Below, one piece after another: positions 13,029-22,103 of a DNA stretch of 64,000 bases. Position 1 is the first letter of the stretch, and the number at the start of each line of letters is the position of its first letter. The notes below the pieces were generated by a model that was not told where the DNA came from, made no database searches, and saw nothing but the letters and a program-made list of their open reading frames with translations. The DNA lies in assembly GCF_010119975.1 (NCBI RefSeq), contig NZ_CP048222.1:1-64000 (forward strand), read 5' to 3'. The stretch is from Rhodocytophaga rosea. Its GTDB lineage: Bacteria > Bacteroidota > Bacteroidia > Cytophagales > 172606-1. A program made the translations under genes and the position numbers.

Positions 13029-13604
13029 CTACAAGGTTTTAACCACCTTAGCTGGAACACCAGCTACAATGCTGTTTGCAGGAACATCCCGGCTCACGAC
13101 TGCTCCGGCTGCCACTACTGCGTTTTCCCCAATAGTTACGCCAGGCAAAATGGTAGCAGCTGCACCGATCCAGGCATTCCGTTTTACCACAATTGGTTTG
13201 AGAAGAACTGTTTTCCGGTCATTTGGATCTAAGGGATGGTTCTCGGTAATCAGGTTGACTTTGGGGCCGATCATCACCTCATCTTCGATGGTAATGTTGC
13301 ACAAATCCAGAAAGGAACAGCCGTGGTTGATAAACACGTTTTTACCTAGCTTAATAAAGCGGCCAAAGTTTGTGTAAAAGGGAGGAAAAATAGTGGTGGA
13401 AGCATCTATCTCCCTGCCGGTGATCTCACTTAGTTGCTTCCGGACCTGGTGTACATCCTCAGCGGAAGCATTCATTTGGGTAACCAGCCGGATGGTACGA
13501 GCAACAACCTCCGCAAACCTGGGGTACTCCGGATCATCGTTTCGCAAGGGCTCGCCAGCTTGCATCCGCTGAAAAATATCTTGATGGTCTGCTTGATTGC
13601 TCAT
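13029..13604 (-). CDS. Sugar O-acetyltransferase, left-handed beta-helix (maltose/galactoside acetyltransferase type)
   Basis: The 191-aa protein has the hexapeptide-repeat pattern of LbH acyltransferases: FINHGCSFLDLCNITIEDEVMIGPKVNLIT, the catalytic-His segment ENHP, IGAAATILPGVTIGENAVVAAGAVVSRDVPANSIVAGVPAKVVKTL. These trimeric enzymes transfer acetyl from acetyl-CoA to hydroxyls on sugars or other small molecules. It is the first of a minus-strand run with two cupin genes. A decayed copy of its C-terminal end lies at 18859-18969, which suggests that this neighbourhood was once duplicated or that a second paralogue was lost. Confidence 0.9.
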   Translation of the reverse strand: MSNQADHQDIFQRMQAGEPLRNDDPEYPRFAEVVARTIRLVTQMNASAEDVHQVRKQLSEITGREIDASTTIFPPFYTNFGRFIKLGKNVFINHGCSFLDLCNITIEDEVMIGPKVNLITENHPLDPNDRKTVLLKPIVVKRNAWIGAAATILPGVTIGENAVVAAGAVVSRDVPANSIVAGVPAKVVKTL

Positions 13605-13658: not shown

Positions 13659-14060
13659 TTATCTATAGCTCTTATAATCTTCATCGGTAACCTTTTCCAT
13701 CCAGTCTACCATTTTTCCGTTTAGTTGCTCTTGCATGGCAATATGAGTCATGGCTATTGTGGGAGATGCACCGTGCCAATGCTTTTCATTGGGTTCAAAC
13801 CAAACAATATCACCTGGATGAATCTCTTCTATTGAGCCGCCTTCCCGTTGCGCTAAACCGACTCCCGCCTTTACGATGAGTGTCTGACCTAGCGGATGCG
13901 TATGCCAGGCCGTTCTTGCTCCCGGCTCAAATGTTACCGTTGCTGCCGCTGTTCGTCTGTGCTCGTTGGGCTGACATATATAATCAATCCGGACTGAGCC
14001 GGTAAACCAGTCTTCGGGGCCTTTAATGGAAGGCTGAGAACCTATTCTGATAATATCCAT
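13659..14060 (-). CDS. Cupin-domain protein (133 aa)
   Basis: This is a single-domain cupin with motif 1 [22 protein letters not shown] and motif 2 [17 protein letters not shown]. His residues at WHTH and at KHWHG are the expected metal ligands. There is no signal peptide, so it is cytoplasmic. Similar cupins stand beside carboxymuconolactone decarboxylase-like and alcohol dehydrogenase genes in bacterial carbonyl-response clusters, and the next genes here follow that pattern. The catalysed reaction is unknown. Confidence 0.85.
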
Positions 14061-14109: not shown

Positions 14110-14625
14110 TCAGTTATTCATGGATGTATATTGTTCATCGGTGACGGGCTCCAACCATGTCACAATTCCCTTCTCAGTATTAGGCAATATATACATTTGT
14201 GTAAGGCTACCCTTTTCACTTGCTCCATGCCAATGCTTTACATTCGGTGGGCATTTCACTACATCCCCCTTTTTCATCAATTGCCTTGGCTCTCCTTCCA
14301 TCTGGTGATACCCTTCCCCATCAATAACAATCAGGATCTGTCCAGCCGGATGTACATGCCAGTTTGATCTGGCTCCCTTTTCGAAGTAGACATTGCCCAC
14401 CAGTGTATGGTAGGTGGAGTCATTAGGCAGAAGAGCAGTATTGTAGGCATTACCGGTAAAGTTTGATGCCGGGCCTTTTTCACCTCTGGGAAATAGGGGT
14501 TCCTGGGCTGAATCGGTTGCTGTTGATTCGCTAATTGGTGTCTTGTCGCCACTGCAGCCAAGAAGGGTACTAATCAGTAAAAGAAGAACTGTATAGGAAA
14601 GGGCAATTTTGGTTTTCTTCTGCAT
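14110..14625 (-). CDS. Cupin-domain lipoprotein (171 aa)
   Basis: The protein begins with a lipoprotein signal ending LISTLLGC, so Cys24 would be lipidated. A linker follows, then a cupin with [17 protein letters not shown] and [20 protein letters not shown]. The fold is the same as that of the 133-aa cupin downstream and the two share the W-H-HP-GQ-L-V and KHWHGAS cores, so they are probably duplicates, one kept in the cytoplasm and one sent to the envelope. The last residues [15 protein letters not shown] mirror [15 protein letters not shown] of the neighbour. Confidence 0.85.
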
Positions 14626-14828: not shown

Positions 14829-15922
14829 TTACTTTTTCAAGGATGCCATATCAATCACAAAGCGGTACTTTACATCGCCTTTCAGCAAGCGTTCATAGGC
14901 TTCATTGATCTGCCCGATGTTGATCATTTCTATATCTGAAACAATATTGTGCTTGCCACAGAAGTCAAGCATTTCCTGCGTTTCGGCAATACCTCCAATC
15001 ATCGAACCAGCGAAGCTTCTCCGGAAAGGGATCAGGCTGAATGCTGCTACCGGAAGCGGAAGTTCTGGCGCACCGACCAAAGCCAATGAACCATCTACCC
15101 GTAACAAATTTAAGTACGCATTGATGTCGTGCTGTGCCGAAACGGCATCCAATACAAAATGAAGCTTGCCTGCATACTTTGCCATTTGCGCTTCATCTTT
15201 GGATAGTACAACATCATCAGCCCCAAGGCGTTTGGCATCTTCCACTTTCGAAGCAGAAGTGGTAAATACGATCACTTCTGCCCCCATGGCCTTAGCAATT
15301 TTAACTCCCATATGTCCCAAACCACCCAGGCCAACGACTCCTACTTTTTTGCCGGGGCCTACGTTCCAATGCTTAAGGGGAGAATAAGTAGTGATGCCTG
15401 CACATAGCAGTGGTGCAGTAGCGGCTAAATCAAGATTTTCTGGTACCCGTAAAACAAAGCTTTCATCCACCACAATGCTTTCTGAATACCCGCCATAGGT
15501 TTGGGTACCCAGGTATTTATCTGGTGAATTATAGGTTTGAATATTCCCTTTTTCGCAATATTGTTCCAGGTCCTCTTGACAATATTGGCATTCCCGGCAG
15601 GAATCTACCAAACAACCTACCGCTGCCACATCGCCTACTTTGAATTTGCTGACATGATCTCCGACACGTACAATTCTGCCGACTATTTCATGACCTGGGA
15701 CGCATGGATAAATAGTACCATGCCATTCATTTCTGGCCGTATGCAGGTCGGAATGACAAACACCACAATACAAAATGTCAATTTCTACATCATGGGATGT
15801 AGTATGTCTGCGGTTAATGGTTAACCCTTTTAAGGGTGCCTTTGCCGCTTCGGTTCCAAATGCTTTTATACTTTTTGTCTTAAGAGTGGTGGCTCCTTTT
15901 CTGTTGTTTTTACATTTTCCAT
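14829..15922 (-). pseudogene. Zinc-dependent alcohol dehydrogenase (cinnamyl-alcohol/YahK type), N-terminal frameshift
   Basis: The frame from 15773 onward encodes the bulk of a medium-chain alcohol dehydrogenase: catalytic-zinc motif CGVCHSD and PGHEIVG, structural-zinc cysteines in SCRECQYCQEDLEQYC, and the dinucleotide loop GLGGLGHMG. It has no ATG there, only TTG. The same frame continues upstream with the expected IKAFGTEAAKAPLKGLTINRR but reaches no start codon. One extra base in the T5 run at 15872-15876 (A5 on the coding strand) joins it to an ATG at 15922 giving MENVKTTEKEPPLLRQK. I conclude that the intact gene is 14829-15922 with one base missing, by mutation or by sequencing error. 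Family enzymes reduce aldehydes with NADPH. Confidence 0.85.
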
Positions 15923-16147
15923 ATATAGTTGTTTTTAGATTTTTTATGTTTTTCTACGCTTATTTTAGTAAAGTATGGATGTACGGGAAGGATCACTGGA
16001 CAGTTTTCGTACACCTTTTAAGTGACAAGTATTCATTACTTATATGGTAGTGGTTTCAATGAAGAACCAGTAAAGAGCTTCTTTTCAATAGTAAAAGGAT
16101 GGCATACGCCTTTAATTGTTTAAACCACTTGCTCGGTATCTTAACTT

Positions 16148-16633
16148 CTACTCCAATTCAAACGTAACCAGCACATTTCCAGAGCCAAGGGCGGCAGCAA
16201 GCCCGGAGGTATCATTGATCCGTCCAAGCTTAGTATAACGGTAAGAGGTAGAAAAGGATTTATAGAAAAGCACCAGCGTGTTGGAACCATACAGCATTAA
16301 ATCACCGTTTTGAATTGTTCCGGGGTTCGTTGCAGTGGCAGGTAGATTGTCTGCTAAATCAAAATACTTCTCATTTCCATTTAACTCACTCATTGTAATA
16401 GTCATCGGCAACAAGGCTTTAAATGCAGTTGCAGTAGCATTGTCATACAACGTTGCCGTGAACGTACTACTTCCGATCTTAATTCTCATTTGACTTCCGG
16501 TAGGGTTTAGAGTATTGTTACTGTTTGTATCTTCCGTATCCGGGTTACTGGGCAGAGAGGCTTCTTTCTTACAAGAGGCTAAACTCGTGAATAAGGAGGA
16601 TAGGAAAAATACGATGAACAGTGAATATTTCAT
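16148..16633 (-). CDS. Cyclophilin-like fold lipoprotein (161 aa)
   Basis: A lipoprotein signal (FIVFFLSSLFTSLASC) is followed by an Asn/Thr-rich linker and a domain starting MRIKIGSSTFTATLYDNATATAFKALLP, with a NGNEKYFDL block and GDLMLYGSNTLVLFYKSF. This is the pattern of the cyclophilin-like domain (Cyclophil_like2), whose members commonly lie with carbonyl reductases and cupins. It is probably anchored to a membrane facing the periplasm. Its promoter carries operator module A, 77-144 bp upstream, so it should be under the same control as the hydrolase operon. Confidence 0.8.
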   Translation of the reverse strand: MKYSLFIVFFLSSLFTSLASCKKEASLPSNPDTEDTNSNNTLNPTGSQMRIKIGSSTFTATLYDNATATAFKALLPMTITMSELNGNEKYFDLADNLPATATNPGTIQNGDLMLYGSNTLVLFYKSFSTSYRYTKLGRINDTSGLAAALGSGNVLVTFELE

Positions 16634-16709
16634 GGCTTGTGGTTTTAGGAAAGTCTACATGCGCGTGTGTCCACCTAGAGGATTTTAGCATTAAGCTTTA
16701 AGAGTTATG

Positions 16710-16777
16710 CAAAGATAACTTAGGGGATAGACCTGCTGGTAAAGGAAATCAAACCAATACTTAAGAATTTCAAACCA
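16710..16777 (-). promoter_or_regulatory. Module A: AraC-type operator plus -7 element
   Basis: Read on the minus strand: two GGTTTGA half-sites 21 bp apart (within 16744-16777), the shared CTTTACC end at 16738-16744, a 20-bp spacer, then TATCTTTG (complement of 16710-16717) followed by GC. TATCTTTG fits the Bacteroidota -7 consensus. It faces the lipoprotein gene at 16148-16633. The same layout recurs at 19046, 21333 and 22038. Confidence 0.75.
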
Positions 16778-16923
16778 AGTATGACACAAAAAGGAAAGAA
16801 AAGACCTATTCAAACTTTCGTAGAAGCAGGTTGGGTCTTTAGATTTAAGATCGTAAAGCTGTAAGGGCATGAAATACAGGTGCTGTCAAGACTACTCTGG
16901 CTTTGCCGCACTTATTGGTTATC

Positions 16924-17709
16924 TTATACGAAGATTTGTTCGTCATCGAAGCGTACACCTGTAATCTGTTCGCACAAGGCAAAGAATTTTTCCTGTATGG
17001 TTATATCGTTAGCTGCTGGCAGATAATGTGCTTGTCTTTTATGGTGGAAATACTGACCGCTTACCCTTGCTCCTGGATCATTGCTTACAGCAAGCCATAC
17101 CTGCGTTTCAAAACCTTTCTCTAGGTTATCAGGCGCCCCTGCTCCACCCATTTTGGTGGGCACCCAGCCGGGATCTATTGCATTGGCATACACATCCTTC
17201 CATTTCCGTGCAACAGCCATAGCCAGGATTACATCATGCAACTTCGTGTCAGCATAACTTACATGACTGTTTCCCATGTGTGTGCCAACGGGTAGATTTT
17301 TTAAGCTTGAATCACCCTGGAGATGCATACCCGAACTTAGGTAGATAAGCCGTTTTGGTTTTTGTAGTAAACAGGTTAGGATATAGGGAGCAATACTGTT
17401 TACAGTAAACAATAGGGGTAACCCCTCGGTACCCTTGCTATTCTTTGGCACCTGATACACACCCGCATTGTGAATAACCGCATCAAAAACGCCCAAAGCA
17501 TTGGCTTCAAAAGCCAATGCTTTAGTTTCCTCCATACTGGAAAGATCAGCTATCAGTACATCCTCGGCACCGGGTAATTTATTCAAAGCCTGCACTCCCC
17601 TCTCCCGGTTACGTGCATGAAGTACCACCTGATGTCCCTCACGAAGCAGCGCCTTTGCTGCCAACTGTCCAAGGCCGTCTGCTGAGCCTGTGATAAATAT
17701 TCTAGCCAT
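16924..17709 (-). CDS. Short-chain dehydrogenase/reductase
   Basis: This 261-aa SDR has the N-terminal cofactor loop TGSADGLG (residues 7-14), an Arg after the second strand (HARNRERG) consistent with NADP preference, NAG in VIHNAGVY, the serine of LIYLSSGMH, and the Tyr-X3-Lys pair as SYADTK. It is therefore expected to be catalytically competent, with unknown substrate. It starts 14 bp after the hydrolase stop on the same strand, so the two form an operon that should be read from module B. Confidence 0.9.
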   Translation of the reverse strand: MARIFITGSADGLGQLAAKALLREGHQVVLHARNRERGVQALNKLPGAEDVLIADLSSMEETKALAFEANALGVFDAVIHNAGVYQVPKNSKGTEGLPLLFTVNSIAPYILTCLLQKPKRLIYLSSGMHLQGDSSLKNLPVGTHMGNSHVSYADTKLHDVILAMAVARKWKDVYANAIDPGWVPTKMGGAGAPDNLEKGFETQVWLAVSNDPGARVSGQYFHHKRQAHYLPAANDITIQEKFFALCEQITGVRFDDEQIFV

Positions 17710-17723
17710 ATTGTGTTGATGGA

Positions 17724-18833
17724 TTAGTTGCCGGCTGCTGAAACAGCACTCTTTCCGGTTGAAACATCCTGACGCTTGCCCTTGTTCAAATTCTCGTTGA
17801 AAAATGATCTCAGCTTATCAAAAGGAATAACATCTAACTTATCATACAAATCAACATGCGTGGCATTAGGGATAATTAGTAACTCTTTCTGCCCGGCTGC
17901 TGATTTGTAAGCATCTGCGCTAAAATAACGGGAGTGTGCATTTTCACCGGCAATCAGCAAAACCGGACGTGGGGCTATTTCTTTGATGTAAGTCAGCAGC
18001 GGCATATTCATGAACGAAAGCGGACTTGTTGCCGTCCATGCACCGTTTGAATTAATCGAATTAGGGTGAAACCCACGTGGCGTTTTATAATAATTGAAAT
18101 AATCTACTACAAACTGGGGTTCGTTGCCTTGCAACTTTTCTGGTAGGTTATTGGTGGATGGAGCAGGTGTACCCTTTTCAGCATCTGTCCAACGTTGCCC
18201 GTTCAGTTGATCAAGCAGTTGAGTTCGCTCATCAAGAGTAAGCTTGTCAAAATAGCCTTTTGCCATCACCCGTGACATATCATACATACTGGTGGTAGCA
18301 ACAGCTTTGACGTGTTTGTCTACGGCAGTAGCATTCAGCGCCATGCCAGCAAACCCACAAATACCAATGATGCCAATACGGGACCTGTCTACATAAGACT
18401 GCAAACTAAGAAAGTCTACGGCTGCACTAAAATCTTCCGTATTGATGTCTGGTGAAGCCACATTACGGGGTTCTCCTCCGCTCTCGCCGGTATATGATGG
18501 GTCAAAGGCAAGGGCCACAAAGCCTCTCTCTGCCATATTTTGTGCATACAGTCCGGACGACTGTTCTTTCACGGCACCAAACGGACCACTAATGGCAAGT
18601 GCTGACAAAGCCTCACTGCCACGATTTTTAGGTATGTATAAATCGGCAGCAAGGGTGATACCATACCGGTTTTTAAACGTTACTGCCTGGCGGGTCACTT
18701 TATCGCTTAGCTTAAAGGTGTAATATTCTTTATTTTCTGTGTTATTCAAGGTTTCTTTATTTTGTTTTGTTTGCGAATAAGCCTGTCCAAAAAGTAGAAT
18801 GGACAAAACGGTTATAAGGGCTATCTTTTTCAT
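17724..18833 (-). CDS. Exported alpha/beta hydrolase, YcjY/dienelactone-hydrolase type with Cys nucleophile
   Basis: A signal peptide (residues 1-20, ending GQAYS) is followed by an alpha/beta hydrolase with the elbow GICGFAG, where Cys159 replaces the usual Ser as in dienelactone hydrolases. His is in NATHVDLYD (about 325) and a likely acid follows IAGENAHS. The mature domain begins TRQAVTFKNRYGITLAADLYIP, typical of YcjY-like proteins next to aldehyde reductases. It would hydrolyse a small ester or lactone in the periplasm. The C-terminal 25 residues (KGKRQDVSTGKSAVSAAGN) are low in complexity. The SDR follows in the same operon. Confidence 0.88.
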   Translation of the reverse strand: MKKIALITVLSILLFGQAYSQTKQNKETLNNTENKEYYTFKLSDKVTRQAVTFKNRYGITLAADLYIPKNRGSEALSALAISGPFGAVKEQSSGLYAQNMAERGFVALAFDPSYTGESGGEPRNVASPDINTEDFSAAVDFLSLQSYVDRSRIGIIGICGFAGMALNATAVDKHVKAVATTSMYDMSRVMAKGYFDKLTLDERTQLLDQLNGQRWTDAEKGTPAPSTNNLPEKLQGNEPQFVVDYFNYYKTPRGFHPNSINSNGAWTATSPLSFMNMPLLTYIKEIAPRPVLLIAGENAHSRYFSADAYKSAAGQKELLIIPNATHVDLYDKLDVIPFDKLRSFFNENLNKGKRQDVSTGKSAVSAAGN

Positions 18834-18858
18834 AGTTTTTCATTTTTAATAAGTACTG

Positions 18859-18969
18859 AATTGTTTTAAAAATATTTGAAGGCACACTGCCTATAACTGT
18901 GTTTGCTGTGACATCCCGGCTGACTATTGTTTGGGCAGTAGCCATGGCACTTTCCCCAATGGTTACTCC
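18859..18969 (-). pseudogene. Remnant of a sugar O-acetyltransferase C-terminus
   Basis: The minus-strand frame reads GVTIGESAMATAQTIVSRDV then TANTVIGSVPSNIFKTI. This aligns residue for residue with the C-terminal coil of the acetyltransferase at 13029-13604 (GVTIGENAVVAAGAVVSRDV and on). Nothing upstream is recognisable. It lies between module B and the hydrolase gene, so the hydrolase promoter now reads through a gene scar. Confidence 0.75.
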
Positions 18970-19045
18970 TTATGTCTATGGTAGTGTAATTGGAGATATT
19001 TTCTCTTTCTACTTTCCTATTGTTACTGAGTTTAAAAATATACTG

Positions 19046-19112
19046 CAAAGATAACTCTACCTTTACCCTTAGTGGTAAAGAGAATCAAACCAATACCTAA
19101 GAATTTCAAACC
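19046..19112 (-). promoter_or_regulatory. Module B: AraC-type operator plus -7 element
   Basis: Minus-strand order: GGTTTGA half-sites 21 bp apart, ending CTTTACC at 19074, a 20-bp spacer, TATCTTTG (complement of 19046-19053) and GC. It begins 3 bp after the stop codon of the AraC gene and faces the acetyltransferase remnant and the hydrolase/SDR operon. Half-site sequence and spacing are the same as in module A. Confidence 0.78.
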
Positions 19113-19114
19113 AA

Positions 19115-19984
19115 TCAAGGTCGGAAAGAGGTAGGTGTATTACCGGTTATTCGTTTGAAGTAGTTATTGAAGTAAGTAGGATACTCAAAGCCCAGACTGT
19201 AGGCAATCTCTGCAATACTCCAGTCGGTATGTTGCAGTAGTGCTTTTGCTTCAGAGATGATCCGTTCGGTGATATGAGCAGTGGTCGGTTTACCGGTCAC
19301 TTCTTTTACTGCCCGGTTTAGATAATTGACATGAATAGACAAGTGGCTGGCATAATCCTGAGCCGTTTTTAATTGTAAAGGCTGATCCGGGCTCTCAATG
19401 GGAAACTGCCTTTCCAGGAGTTCCATGAATACCGAAGTAATTCTGGAAGAGGCGTTTTTGTGTTGATCATAGTTTTCTGAAGGCTGCAGTTTCAACGCCT
19501 CATGAATGATTAGATTGATATAGTTGCGCATCAGGTCGTCTTTATAAGCATAATCGGCCTTCTGCTCCTCAATCATTTTACGAAAGATGGTATTTAAAAA
19601 CTCCCGCTGCCCCTCTGTTATCTTTAAAATGGGCGTTCCGCCAATTTTAAATAAAGGAGAATGCTGCAGACTTTCGGAACGGTCAGATGCGCCAAAAAAA
19701 CCTTCCGAAAAAAGACAGGTATACCCTACATAGATCGTTGAAAGGGTTTCCCAGGAGTAAGGAATGTGTGGATTACCAAAAAACAAAACGGTGCCTTCGG
19801 CTTCAAAGCTCCGGTCGGCATAGTGAATGATACTTTTGCCCGTGGTCAGACAAATCTTATAAAAGTCCTTTCTGCTGTACATACGTACAGCATTGCCGTC
19901 AGCCTCGATTTGGAATACATTAAATCCCTTCAGTTTTAGTTCATTATTAAAGTCCGAAACGGAACGTATTGCTTGGTTTTTCAT
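19115..19984 (-). CDS. AraC-family transcriptional regulator
   Basis: The 289-aa protein has an N-terminal cupin-like effector domain (about 1-150, with SFEAEGTVLFFGNPHIPYSWE) and a C-terminal double HTH (about 185-289). The latter includes SIHVNYLNRAVKEVTGKPTTAHITERIISEAKALL and the conserved IAEIAYSLGFEYPTYFNNYFKRITGNTPTSFR. It belongs to the group that controls SDR, hydrolase and reductase genes in carbonyl-response clusters. Because four identical operator modules surround it and all face the minus strand, it is the likely binder. A truncated paralogue lies at 21528-22033. Its own 5' region (19985-20217) shows no clear module. Confidence 0.93.
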   Translation of the reverse strand: MKNQAIRSVSDFNNELKLKGFNVFQIEADGNAVRMYSRKDFYKICLTTGKSIIHYADRSFEAEGTVLFFGNPHIPYSWETLSTIYVGYTCLFSEGFFGASDRSESLQHSPLFKIGGTPILKITEGQREFLNTIFRKMIEEQKADYAYKDDLMRNYINLIIHEALKLQPSENYDQHKNASSRITSVFMELLERQFPIESPDQPLQLKTAQDYASHLSIHVNYLNRAVKEVTGKPTTAHITERIISEAKALLQHTDWSIAEIAYSLGFEYPTYFNNYFKRITGNTPTSFRP

Positions 19985-20226
19985 CTGAAAAGCTTTAAAA
20001 ATTAACTAAGATGCTAAAGACTTTTATGATTTGAATTGTTGCAGGCCGGAAGGTACAGGTATGGATAACCCATTATTGGGCAGACATTAAACTACCTAAG
20101 TGTAACTTGTTTCTAAAACAATTCGTTGCAAATTTCTCCTCTACCATTAAGATAAGCGTCCGGTGGCAGGAAGGCTTGTACTTCTTCCTGAAGGGATTAT
20201 TTCATATTTAATGGTTAATTAAGTAA

Positions 20227-21269
20227 TTAAACACAATTAAGTATAATATTTTCATCTACTTCAAGTTTTTTAAAATCAAGTTTAAAGTAAGTACCCAATC
20301 CTGAAAAGATGGTATAAAGTGCCTCCTTAAGCGCTTCTACAGACAGATAGTCTTCGGCTTTGAGCCAATGATATTTCACCTGCTTCCAAAATCGTTCGAT
20401 CCTGTTAAGATGAGGACTATACTTAGGCAGCAAAAAGATGTATAATCCTTTCTGTTCCCATTCTTCTTTTTTGACTTCCCATAGGCCACATGTATGCCAG
20501 GAGGCGTTGTCTAAGACTATGACAGTAAACTTGGAAATAGATGTTGAGAAGGCCTCTACACATTCAATGATAAAGTCAGCGTTTAGACTCCCACTTTTCT
20601 GATAAGTAAGCAACTCATTATTTGTACTTAACAAGCCAAATACATTTATCCTTGTACTTCTTTGGGATAAAATAGGGGCGTGTTCGCCTTTTTTGATCCA
20701 TCCATAAGGTACACAAGGGGTAAGGCAAAACCCTGATTCGTCTCCAAAATATAAATCTATACTGCCTGTCTGTGCCAAATAAAGCAAAGCATGTAATCGC
20801 TTGACTTTCTGCTCATATGCTTCTTTGTTTTGCAATGGCTTTATCCATTTACGGAAACGTTTCCATCGGTAGTCAATTTTTTTAAAAACCGCTTCAAGGT
20901 CATCTCACTCATAGCCGTGCCTAATTTAGCTTCTATCTCTCGCTTAGCTAATTTAAGTTGTTGTTTTTCTTTCTCTATGCTATTTTCCACTACTTCAACA
21001 TGGGTAGCATTACTGGTAGTAAGGATGGGTTTTCTGCCTTTCCCTTTTTGGTTCTTTAACCCTACCACACCTGTTTTCTCAAAGCGATCAAACCACTTAT
21101 AAATACTTAACTGACTTACTTGAAAAATGCTTGCTAACTTCTGTACTTGATAGCCTTGATTGGATAACAGTATACATTGGCAACGGTTACGTTCCTGATA
21201 ACTTTTACTATCTTTATGAATCTTCTCTAAGTCTTGTTTTTGCTTGTCTGTAATCTTCTTGATATAACG
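20227..21269 (-). CDS. IS630 transposase, made by -1 frameshifting of orfA and orfB
   Basis: OrfA (ATG at 21269, stop at 20841) holds the HTH part: SYQERNRCQCILLSNQGYQV, LASIFQVSQLSIYKWFDRF, then a helix-rich linker. OrfB (frame open from about 20883, stop at 20227) carries the DDE core with FGDESGF, IVLDNASWH and LPKYSPHLNRIERFW. OrfB has no good start of its own. The two frames overlap at a run of seven A on the coding strand; a -1 step there gives the fused sequence KKIDYRWKRFRKWIKPLQNK, which is the natural join. The longer orfA frame to 21335 uses TTG inside the promoter and is not preferred. The catalytic residues are all present, so the element may still be active. Confidence 0.85.
20877..20883 (-). 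promoter_or_regulatory. Slippery heptamer A AAA AAA for -1 frameshifting
   Basis: On the coding strand orfA reads TTA AAA AAA TTG. The heptamer is phased exactly as X XXY YYZ, and slipping back one base continues as ATT GAC TAC CGA TGG in the orfB frame, giving IDYRW. Confidence 0.75.
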
Positions 21270-21332
21270 CATAAGCAAAGATACAATTTGCCAAAATCTT
21301 ATACTTAATTGTGTACTCTTACTTAGTTTATG

Positions 21333-21399
21333 CAAAGGTATACATTTGAATAGGGGAAGTGGTAAAGAAAATCAAACGAATAAGTATGAATTTCAAACA
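21333..21399 (-). promoter_or_regulatory. Module C: AraC-type operator plus -7 element, cut by IS630
   Basis: Minus-strand order: GTTTGA half-sites 21 bp apart, CTTTACC ending at 21361, a 20-bp spacer, TACCTTTG (complement of 21333-21340), then GCA and the TA into which IS630 has inserted. The gene originally served is now beyond the element; the AraC gene at 19984 is the nearest candidate. The IS630 transposase start lies 64 bp downstream of the -7 element. Confidence 0.75.
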
Positions 21400-21527
21400 T
21401 TTATATCTGAAATAGGTAAGAAAGCAATGGACAAATCTTGGAGCAGTAGTGTGCTGCCTAGTAAAAGGTAAGACATAAACAAAATGGAAAATACGTATCA
21501 GGTTTTCTAACAGTTGGAGCTATTCTC

Positions 21528-22033
21528 CTAAGGTTGCATTTTTAATGCTTCATGGATAAGCACATGCAGCCCATTATTAATAAGCTCATGCTTAAAGAAG
21601 TAGTCTGAATCTTGAGCGGAGTATATCTGCCCAAAAATAGCAGTCATATGTTTTTTTTGCTCTTGGTTTAAAGGGCAAAGAGCTATATCTCCCAGGCCAA
21701 ATATGGGTGAGTGCAAAAAGGCTCCTAAATGAGGATGCCTTCTCAAGAACGCTTCCGTAAAAGTGCAACTATATCCACTCTGCGCTAGAGAAGTATTTTC
21801 CCATCTGTAAGTAGCATTAGGACTGGCATAAAACAAGACACTTCCATCAATTTCTATTTCTTCCTCCCCATAATAAATTCTACTTTTTGCAGTAATCAAA
21901 TAGAGTTTATAAAAATCTCTGCGCTTGTAAGAGGGGCAGTTGTTAGGCCAAGCTCTATTTTATAGGCTTTAAAACCTTTGAGTTGTAGACAAGGATGAAA
22001 TTGAGAGATAGATATAACACCAGAATGCGACAT
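21528..22033 (-). pseudogene. Truncated AraC-family paralogue (effector domain only)
   Basis: From the ATG at 22033 the protein reads MSHSGVISISQFHPCLQLKG and then loses frame near 21943. One extra base restores NCPSYKRRDFYKLYLITAKS and the rest down to HEALKMQP, where a TAG ends it. Over this length it parallels residues 1 to about 165 of the AraC protein at 19115 (for example RKDFYKICLTTGKS and HEALKLQP). The whole DNA-binding domain is absent. It retains module D directly at its start codon. Confidence 0.85.
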
Positions 22034-22037
22034 GCTG

Positions 22038-22103
22038 CAAAGTTATTGCTTTGCATACTCTCATCGGTAAAGAAAATCAAACCAATTAGTAAGGGTTTCA
22101 AAC
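22038..22103 (-). promoter_or_regulatory. Module D: AraC-type operator plus -7 element
   Basis: Minus-strand order: GTTTGA half-sites 21 bp apart, CTTTACC ending at 22066, a 20-bp spacer, then TAACTTTG (complement of 22038-22045). The ATG of the truncated AraC gene follows the -7 element after only 4 bases, so the transcript would be leaderless or nearly so. Confidence 0.75.

Follow-up and report, generated by a model that had tools for sequence, protein, structure and literature searches.

At E. coli araI1-I2, AraC occupies tandem direct half-sites placed 21 bp apart, with two HTH units to each, beside the −35 region. Beyond YqhD, DkgA is a further member of the E. coli YqhC regulon. In that regulon the regulator is paired with the aldehyde reductase YqhD (PMC8262776). 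The HTCS and RhaR regulons of Bacteroides are described, in the accessible parts of two papers (PMC3878776, PMC3870299), as relying on direct repeats with a period of ~21 bp that bring both subunits of a dimer to the same helix face; they serve the use of sugars and polysaccharides, the HTCSs are membrane-bound hybrids, and the same parts do not mention an overlap with the regulator’s stop codon.

Here we describe four modules in a 64,000-nucleotide stretch of the Rhodocytophaga rosea genome (GCF_010119975.1, contig NZ_CP048222.1, positions 1 to 64,000; ‘the window’), which share direct repeats of ~21-bp period and the phylum with the Bacteroides HTCS and RhaR regulons but carry other motifs. 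Like araI1-I2, they consist of tandem direct half-sites 21 bp apart, the downstream one at the −35 position (here −33); unlike araI1-I2, they have another sequence and a Bacteroidota-type core promoter, and the operator lies at the 3′ end of the regulator’s own gene. From the sequence, geometry, conservation, co-occurrence and covariation documented below we infer, with a probability of about 85%, that the modules are the binding site and core promoter for the product of araC (19115..19984), which would switch on the genes behind them; the sequence is best read as a system in which AraC is an activator working through I1-I2-like tandem operators.

Four modules around an araC gene

The four 67-bp modules of fixed geometry recognised in the earlier note are present, at coordinates that differ from its own by 1–2 bases; they and all genes below lie on the minus strand. 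Common to them is the order GTTTGA, 15 bp, GTTTGATT, 2 bp, CTTTACC, 20 bp, TAnnTTTGC, and 40 of the 71 columns of their alignment are invariant. Module m1 (16709..16775; predicted +1 at 16705; 56.2 bits with profile R2), a tandem operator with a −7 element, precedes CYC, a cyclophilin-like lipoprotein gene (16148..16633; PF18050, E 5e-35). Module m2 (19045..19111; +1 at 19041; 55.4 bits) lies 3 nt beyond the stop codon of araC, leaving that codon just outside the operator, and faces the alpha/beta hydrolase gene HYD (17724..18833) followed by an SDR oxidoreductase (16924..17709). Module m3 (21332..21398; +1 at 21328; 46.2 bits) is the equivalent site behind a truncated second araC (21474..22033), a gene with an interrupted frame and no HTH-coding part, of which 21474–21944 matches araC residues 31–187 at 35%. 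An IS630-type insertion sequence (20231..21314; 16-bp inverted ends, DDE_3 transposase encoded by two ORFs) lies ~14 nt downstream of the predicted +1 of m3 and separates it from araC. Finally, m4 (22037..22103; +1 at 22033; 48.6 bits) would be the operator-promoter of the second araC remnant, whose upper limit we set at the ATG lying exactly on the predicted +1.

Further genes follow CYC: ADH, a zinc alcohol dehydrogenase (14829..15773) that resembles the aldehyde reductase Ahr at a score under that model’s cut-off and whose 5′ end is seemingly out of frame; the cupin genes CUP1 (14110..14625; NF049940 score 130.5, under the cut-off of 140) and CUP2 (13659..14060; 198.9 with the same (R)-mandelonitrile lyase model, passing it); and HEX, coding for a hexapeptide O-acetyltransferase-like protein (13029..13604), in relatives the most frequent first gene behind the operator. 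The genes downstream of the operator look like a reshuffled, detoxification-like set. As in the YqhC regulon, a regulator is paired with a putative aldehyde reductase; the present set is broader, with acetyltransferase, cupins, cyclophilin-like protein, hydrolase, SDR and ADH. Our guess is that the inducer is a reactive carbonyl or aromatic compound.

The whole-genome motif search suggested in the earlier note gave four matches in the complete 8,983,451-bp genome, all on the minus strand within 16709–22103, with a spacer of 18–22 allowed; a reversed control pattern gave none. When the search was reduced to the pair of half-sites and 2 mismatches were tolerated, the window gave 6 matches where 1.03 would be expected; those without mismatch are m1–m4. 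By itself, the −7-like GCAAANNTA occurs 28 times in the window, the expectation being 17.6 (a count reached by 1 of 100 shuffles), and because this exceeds chance only modestly, the evidence is the complete geometry. The next-best sites of the genome with profile R1 lie directly 3′ of the two closest AraC paralogues (19.8 and 19.2 bits; 24.9 and 37.5 bits with R2). Marginal profile matches of 19.4 and 19.3 bits were also seen at 1780933 and 5974456.

Four copies inside 5.4 kb, next to a duplicated araC and an IS630 element, might suggest that duplication has spread a mobile element or local repeat devoid of a regulatory role. We consider this explanation barely credible: the spacer sequences vary from copy to copy, the two boxes and the −7 element being kept, and the site occupies the same place and is constrained in relatives from other families and other orders.

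Half-sites, promoter spacing and the direction of control

For comparison we fetched 80 araC orthologues from Bacteroidota, together with a set of 132 homologues. The half-site is longer than first read: 15 bp, GTTTGAnnnTCnTWA, composed of box A (GTTTGA) and box B (TCnTWA). CTTTACC is no element of its own: most of it is the box B that belongs to the second half-site and covers −33, and its C (operator position 37) is conserved in the promoter-side copy only. The earlier interpretation holds in part: CTTTACC as an independent element falls away, and an operator for a dimeric AraC-type protein, made of direct repeats separated by two turns of the helix, is supported. Across spacings of 8–39, 21 bp stands out as the maximum (75/80 orthologues, 80/132 homologues), followed by 20 and 22.

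The proposed Bacteroidota −7 element is borne out as well: m1–m4 carry TAnnTTTG, and TTTG is in place, 61–63 nt from the operator start, in 74 of 75 loci, many of which have GA instead of TA. Given that the −7 box spans −12 to −5 (PMC9723704, in the part accessible), this distance puts the computed operator end near −34 and its span at about −70 to −34, consistent with the suggested overlap with the −33 position. Across 71 loci the information content is 1.47 bits in the operator, 0.16 in the spacer and 1.14 in the −7 element, and in 19 of 74 loci a start codon lies exactly on the predicted +1, placed 8 nt beyond the first T of the −7 TTTG, so that their transcripts would be leaderless.

In the mechanism that we propose, two AraC monomers would sit head-to-tail on the two 15-bp half-sites 21 bp apart, HTH1 reading box A and HTH2 box B, so that the downstream monomer would cover −33 and most likely recruit RNA polymerase directly. 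An operator reaching −33 could serve a repressor, with bound AraC excluding RNA polymerase until an inducer releases it. This alternative is unlikely: a repressor would have no need of a distance to the −7 element that is constant within one base in 74/75 loci across a nearly unconstrained spacer, and the consensus has no TTTG at −33. Activation by AraC, for which the argument is this fixed spacing, is the most likely direction of control. Furthermore, m4, and m3 prior to the arrival of IS630, would place the araC genes themselves under control of the site.

The link between the modules and AraC

The araC product is an AraC/XylS-family regulator of 289 aa (HTH_18, E 2e-20) that passes PF12833 (73.3 bits, cut-off 33.6) and PF00165 (39.3, cut-off 26.6); among NCBIfam models only HpaA, AraC and PocR matched, every one under its cut-off. 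Its C-terminal domain has two HTH motifs, with recognition helices at 219–230 and 269–280 in the structural model. The Foldseek matches listed for this model are AraC-family proteins, with whole-chain TM of no more than 0.26–0.38; comparing just the DNA-binding domains raises this to at most 0.83 of the target. In 2k9s, a solved AraC DNA-binding domain chain, the positions aligned with R224 and Y268 are residues 39 and 83; these we take to be H212 and D256 of AraC, which contact DNA.

The same residues change together with the operator. R224 goes with G at op0 in 120/126 cases and K224 with A in 18/21; Y268 goes with T or A at op11 in 105/105 and E268 with G in 37/37. In a branch-weighted co-change test, with a tree built from the N-terminal domain only, R224-op0 ranks 1, Y268-op11 3, T270-op34 4 and Y221-op-1 5 among 9204 residue-base pairs, rank 2 being taken by Y36-op35, a residue beyond the DNA-binding domain; this test was devised with the result of an independent-pairs test known, the mutual-information ranking having been made earlier. 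In the independent-pairs Fisher test, which is uncorrected for pair divergence, the four pairs rank 179, 1151, 41 and 16 of 8087, and its list is headed by columns beyond the DNA-binding domain. The covarying residues lie within the model recognition helices, Y268 just before; R224 (HTH1) pairs with box A, Y268 and T270 (HTH2) with box B.

Co-occurrence points the same way. In a phylum sample of 296 genomes, all 11 with a strong module have AraC, as against 0 strong modules in the 277 genomes without it (Fisher 2.4e-15); among the 19 AraC-bearing genomes, 8 lack a module at E<=1e-6. With the limit set at E<=0.01 for the order sample, 35 genomes have both, above chance (Fisher 7e-10), while 26 of the 61 module genomes have no AraC (E<=1e-60) and 18 of the 53 AraC genomes no module. 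Modules without AraC, which the earlier note would have held against the link, are seen in weak form (E 3.4e-5 to 0.01; 26 of the 194 order genomes lacking AraC), whereas the strong ones of the phylum sample keep to AraC genomes. Strong sites also stand on two contigs that have no araC match, and there they precede the same gene families: HYD (71%) in G138 and ADH (93%)-SDR-CUP2 in G004.

Direct repeats of 21 bp are also used by HTCS and other Bacteroides AraC-type regulators (PMC3878776), so that a different DNA-binding protein might read the modules, with AraC merely adjoining. The covariation of operator bases with recognition-helix residues and the confinement of strong modules in the phylum sample to AraC genomes make this very improbable; both support the earlier link of the modules to the AraC at 19115, and the covariation favours AraC itself as the operator binder.

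A proposed operator at the end of its regulator’s gene

The earlier note overlooked that, in most relatives, the site is tied to the araC 3′ end and usually contains the stop codon. It is found there in 75 of the 80 orthologues and absent there in 5; R2 matches at all 80 loci, 75 of which had trained it. In 72/80 the araC stop codon is bases 4–6 of the first GTTTGA. An operator lies within −3..+12 of the stop in 74/80 orthologues and 77/132 homologues, compared with 2 of 819 other called ORFs from the same loci; by the criteria used here it is missing in 33 of the 132 homologues, or in 47 under stricter ones. Since 21 bp are seven codons, both half-site TGAs and the box-B TAA share one frame: stops stand at operator positions 3, 12 and 24 in 69/72 loci, and homologue genes end at each of the three. 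Homologues are seen on a Spirosoma plasmid and in Acinetobacter; among three plasmid homologues examined, one (L304) has no operator behind it. Reading the module as an RNA element was dropped, as RNAalifold predicted 0 pairs over 75 modules.

In most relatives, regulator, operator and promoter would be inherited as a single block, with a changing assortment of detoxification-type genes behind it; the window would contain two blocks of this kind, one made of araC and m2, the other of the broken second araC and m3, plus m1 and m4 before further genes. As for the overlap itself, we lean towards neutral compaction, a promoter abutting the upstream gene in an arrangement preserved by ancestry: the stop has moved among homologues (−24, −12, −3, 2 to 11) with the operator remaining close, and the window’s own copy has no overlap, although neutrality sits less easily with an overlap kept in 72/80 orthologues despite a poorly conserved C-terminal tail. 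More tentatively, and with some doubt, selection may maintain the operator of this AraC lineage as the terminal part of the regulator gene, with a triple stop in frame: regulator, stop, operator and promoter would make up a self-contained plug moving between replicons, perhaps phyla, and AraC bound there might in addition influence how araC is transcribed or terminated.

The 21-bp geometry was already known; what is new is an operator that ends its own regulator’s gene. Neither this regulon nor an operator containing its regulator’s stop codon was found in the titles and opening abstract lines of open PubMed Central papers. On this reading an anonymous repeat becomes a readable regulon present in many Bacteroidota, and a candidate residue-to-base code emerges from the covariation for a large AraC lineage, in which box A goes with position 224 and box B with positions 268 and 270. 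The last bases of a regulator gene would often reveal its operator and hence its first target. If the plug reading is true, anything landing downstream would become inducible, and, if selected, the joining of the operator to the end of the gene would allow compact joint inheritance and transfer of a regulator with its promoter.

Modules in the R. rosea genome and the company they keep

The four minus-strand operator-promoter modules, m1 to m4 (16709-16775, 19045-19111, 21332-21398 and 22037-22103), share the pattern GTTTGA-N15-GTTTGATT-N2-CTTTACC-N20-TAnnTTTGC. A single contig of 8,983,451 bp begins with the 64 kb of the window, and a whole-genome search for the complete pattern, with spacers of 18-22 permitted, returned four matches versus none for the reversed control. 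Along the minus strand the order is m4, a broken second araC, m3, an IS630-type element, araC (19115-19984), m2, an alpha/beta hydrolase (HYD), an SDR oxidoreductase, m1, a cyclophilin-like lipoprotein (CYC), a zinc alcohol dehydrogenase (ADH), two cupins (CUP1 and CUP2) and an acetyltransferase-like protein (HEX). The IS630-type element (20231-21314; 16-bp inverted ends, transposase in two ORFs) is inserted ~14 nt downstream of the predicted m3 transcription start and separates m3 from araC. The N-terminal part of ADH (14829-15950) that is seen in the relative L178 is absent from its frame, the upstream part lying in another frame, so that a frameshift close to the start of the gene seems likely.

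R1, the profile built from the four modules, scores them at 66-72 bits in their own genome. The next two matches (19.8 and 19.2 bits) lie directly 3' of the AraC's two nearest paralogues (57% and 65% identity), and R2, a wider profile, assigns these sites 24.9 and 37.5 bits. Of the 194 genomes of the order that were searched, 61 give an R2 match (E<=0.01) and 53 an AraC match (E<=1e-60); 35 contain both, 26 the module only and 18 AraC only (Fisher test, 7e-10). The matches in the 26 module-only genomes are weak (best E 3.4e-5), and some of them are probably due to chance. Of 25 R2 matches of at least 30 bits, five of them in R. rosea itself, 14 directly adjoin an AraC homologue at its 3' end, eight are within 10 kb of one and three are on contigs without a homologue. 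One of these three fronts a hydrolase 71% like HYD and another a row of hydrolase remnant, ADH (93%), SDR and cupin, the target families of the window; the third, in G175, fronts a transporter-like gene.

The earlier note had tied the modules to the AraC, and named modules in unrelated genomes without AraC neighbours as what would undo the tie. Across 296 genomes of the phylum the tie held for strong modules: R2 at E<=1e-6 was found in 11, all among the 19 carriers of AraC at E<=1e-100, and in none of the other 277 (Fisher test, 2.4e-15). Eight of the 19 carriers have no R2 match at this threshold; in the ten strong-module genomes other than R. rosea the best module is at most ~13 nt from the araC end.

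A probable operator that contains the stop codon of its regulator

Of 329 araC orthologues found, we collected the best 80 (74-85% identity) with their flanks; they come from MAGs and from named genomes of Bacteroidota type. R2 matches in all 80 loci, and 75 of these have the operator where araC ends, on its 3' side. The first half-site (GTTTGAnnnTCnTWA, comprising box A, GTTTGA, and box B, TCnTWA) has the araC stop codon as its bases 4-6 in 72 loci, and this codon is TGA except in L052, where it is TAA; a slightly different detector places the stop inside the operator in 71. In L039, L049 and L066 the operator begins 1-3 nt past the stop, as does the window copy (3 nt). Five loci (L045, L078, L107, L112 and L114) have no operator at the araC end, and R2 locates one elsewhere in each. 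Six loci (L051, L064, L067, L069, L087 and L107; five of six Dyadobacter) contain a second operator upstream of araC, on the opposite strand and pointing away.

Over 71 loci, mean information is 1.47 bits at operator positions 0-36, 0.16 in the spacer, 1.14 at the -7 box and 0.17 downstream. Since operator information is high and the final coding positions ahead of the operator are poorly conserved, the constraint acts on the DNA site rather than on the AraC tail. TCnTTA of the second half-site (positions 30-35) corresponds to TCTTAA of the first (9-14). Only the second copy keeps the C of position 37 (-33; 1.09 bits vs 0.19 at position 16), which is therefore probably part of the promoter.

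Among 132 AraC homologues (132 of 134 entries; 40-100% identity), the stop lies inside the first half-site in 44, the repeat is 0-60 nt past the stop in 47 and elsewhere in eight, and 33 have none under this criterion. An operator lies within -3 to +12 of the stop in 77/132 homologues and 74/80 orthologues, as against 2/819 other called ORFs at the same loci. When repeat spacings of 8-39 were scanned, 21 was outstanding (80/132 homologues, 75/80 orthologues), followed by 22 and 20. A third detector, based on the second half-site and the -7 box, puts the stop at operator position 3 in 36 of the 132 genes, 12 in five and 24 in one, with 47 undetected. These positions are the in-frame stops that arise from a 21-bp, seven-codon repeat, and all three stops are present in 69 of the 72 orthologues with a stop inside the operator. 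In L209, L220, L221, L237 and L272 the stop is the box-B TAA, and in L262 it is the TGA of the second half-site.

Bacteroides AraC-type regulators with the same 21-bp direct-repeat geometry are already described (PMC3878776, PMC3870299), so neither the geometry nor the putative binding mode is new. Our searches of the open literature turned up no paper on this regulon, and none on an operator containing its own regulator's stop codon.

Probable reading of the operator by AraC and possible contact with polymerase

Covariation was examined in 156 AraC-operator pairs from 212 genes, after dropping those with no operator by our detector, short proteins and duplicates. Corrected mutual information is highest for Y268 and box-B position 11, and second for R224 and box-A position 0. 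Y268 is paired with T or A in 105/105 cases, E268 with G in 37/37 and Q268 with G in 6/6, D and N at this residue mostly with A (6/8); R224 is paired with G in 120/126 and K224 with A in 18/21. In a branch-weighted co-change test on a tree from AraC residues 1-190 only, R224-op0, Y268-op11, T270-op34 and Y221-op-1 rank 1, 3, 4 and 5 among 9204 pairs; the second-ranked pair, Y36-op35, involves a residue that is not in the DNA-binding domain. Recognition-helix pairs number five in the top 20 (1.4 expected), all five with the expected box. An unweighted independent-pairs test did not reproduce the signal (the same four pairs at ranks 179, 1151, 41 and 16 of 8087). In the AlphaFold2 model the recognition helices are 219-230 and 269-280, with the covarying residues inside and Y268 just before. 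The near-constant TTTGA of box A is matched by constancy in the first helix-turn-helix, HTH1 (N220 and L222, 156/156; N223, 154/156). Together these results support the AraC itself as the reader of the operator and assign box A to HTH1 and box B to HTH2, towards the promoter.

The -7 TTTG begins 62 nt after the operator start in 62 of 75 loci, 61 in 11 and 63 in one, and is absent in L061. That the spacing is fixed to one base although the spacer sequence is free suggests direct contact with polymerase, and hence activation. Placing the -7 box at -12 to -5, following PMC9723704, puts the computed +1 70 nt past the operator start, and the operator would extend from -70 to about -34. Exactly at this +1, 19/74 loci (L043, L048, L052, L053, L070 and 14 others) have a start codon that opens a frame of at least 70 codons, and at m4 too an ATG coincides with the predicted +1; a second peak of start codons is at +20 (10 loci) and +21 (17), all other offsets having at most four. 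A leaderless share of about a quarter is high beside the 5.5% given for the organism of PMC9723704, which supports the +1 placement.

Plasmids, target genes and a possible signal

AraC homologues (E<=1e-60) occur in 19 plasmid records, four labelled Acinetobacter, and we inspected three. The homologue on a Spirosoma plasmid (75.7%) likewise terminates in the operator, with TTTA replacing the -7 TTTG. The Acinetobacter homologue (52.6%; L302 3818-3960) has both half-sites 9 nt past the stop and an aldo/keto reductase downstream; there is no clear -7 box of the Bacteroidota type at the expected place, which reads TATAGT, and the case, one sequence family, is only a lead. No operator was found behind the Hymenobacter plasmid homologue (54.9%).

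The same target families return across the 80 loci in varying order. The operator is followed first by HEX in 40, ADH in eight, CUP1 in six, CYC in five, HYD in four, CUP2 in one and another gene in seven (four transporter-like by sequence, that of L046 being MFS_1), with none within 420 nt in nine. ADH resembles the aldehyde reductase Ahr with a score below the cut-off, and CUP2 scores above the cut-off of the mandelonitrile lyase model. Residue 90, in the N-terminal domain of the AraC, is Cys in 141/155 homologues. Our guess is that the target genes act against reactive carbonyl or aromatic compounds, and C90 might be a sensor, possibly of electrophiles.
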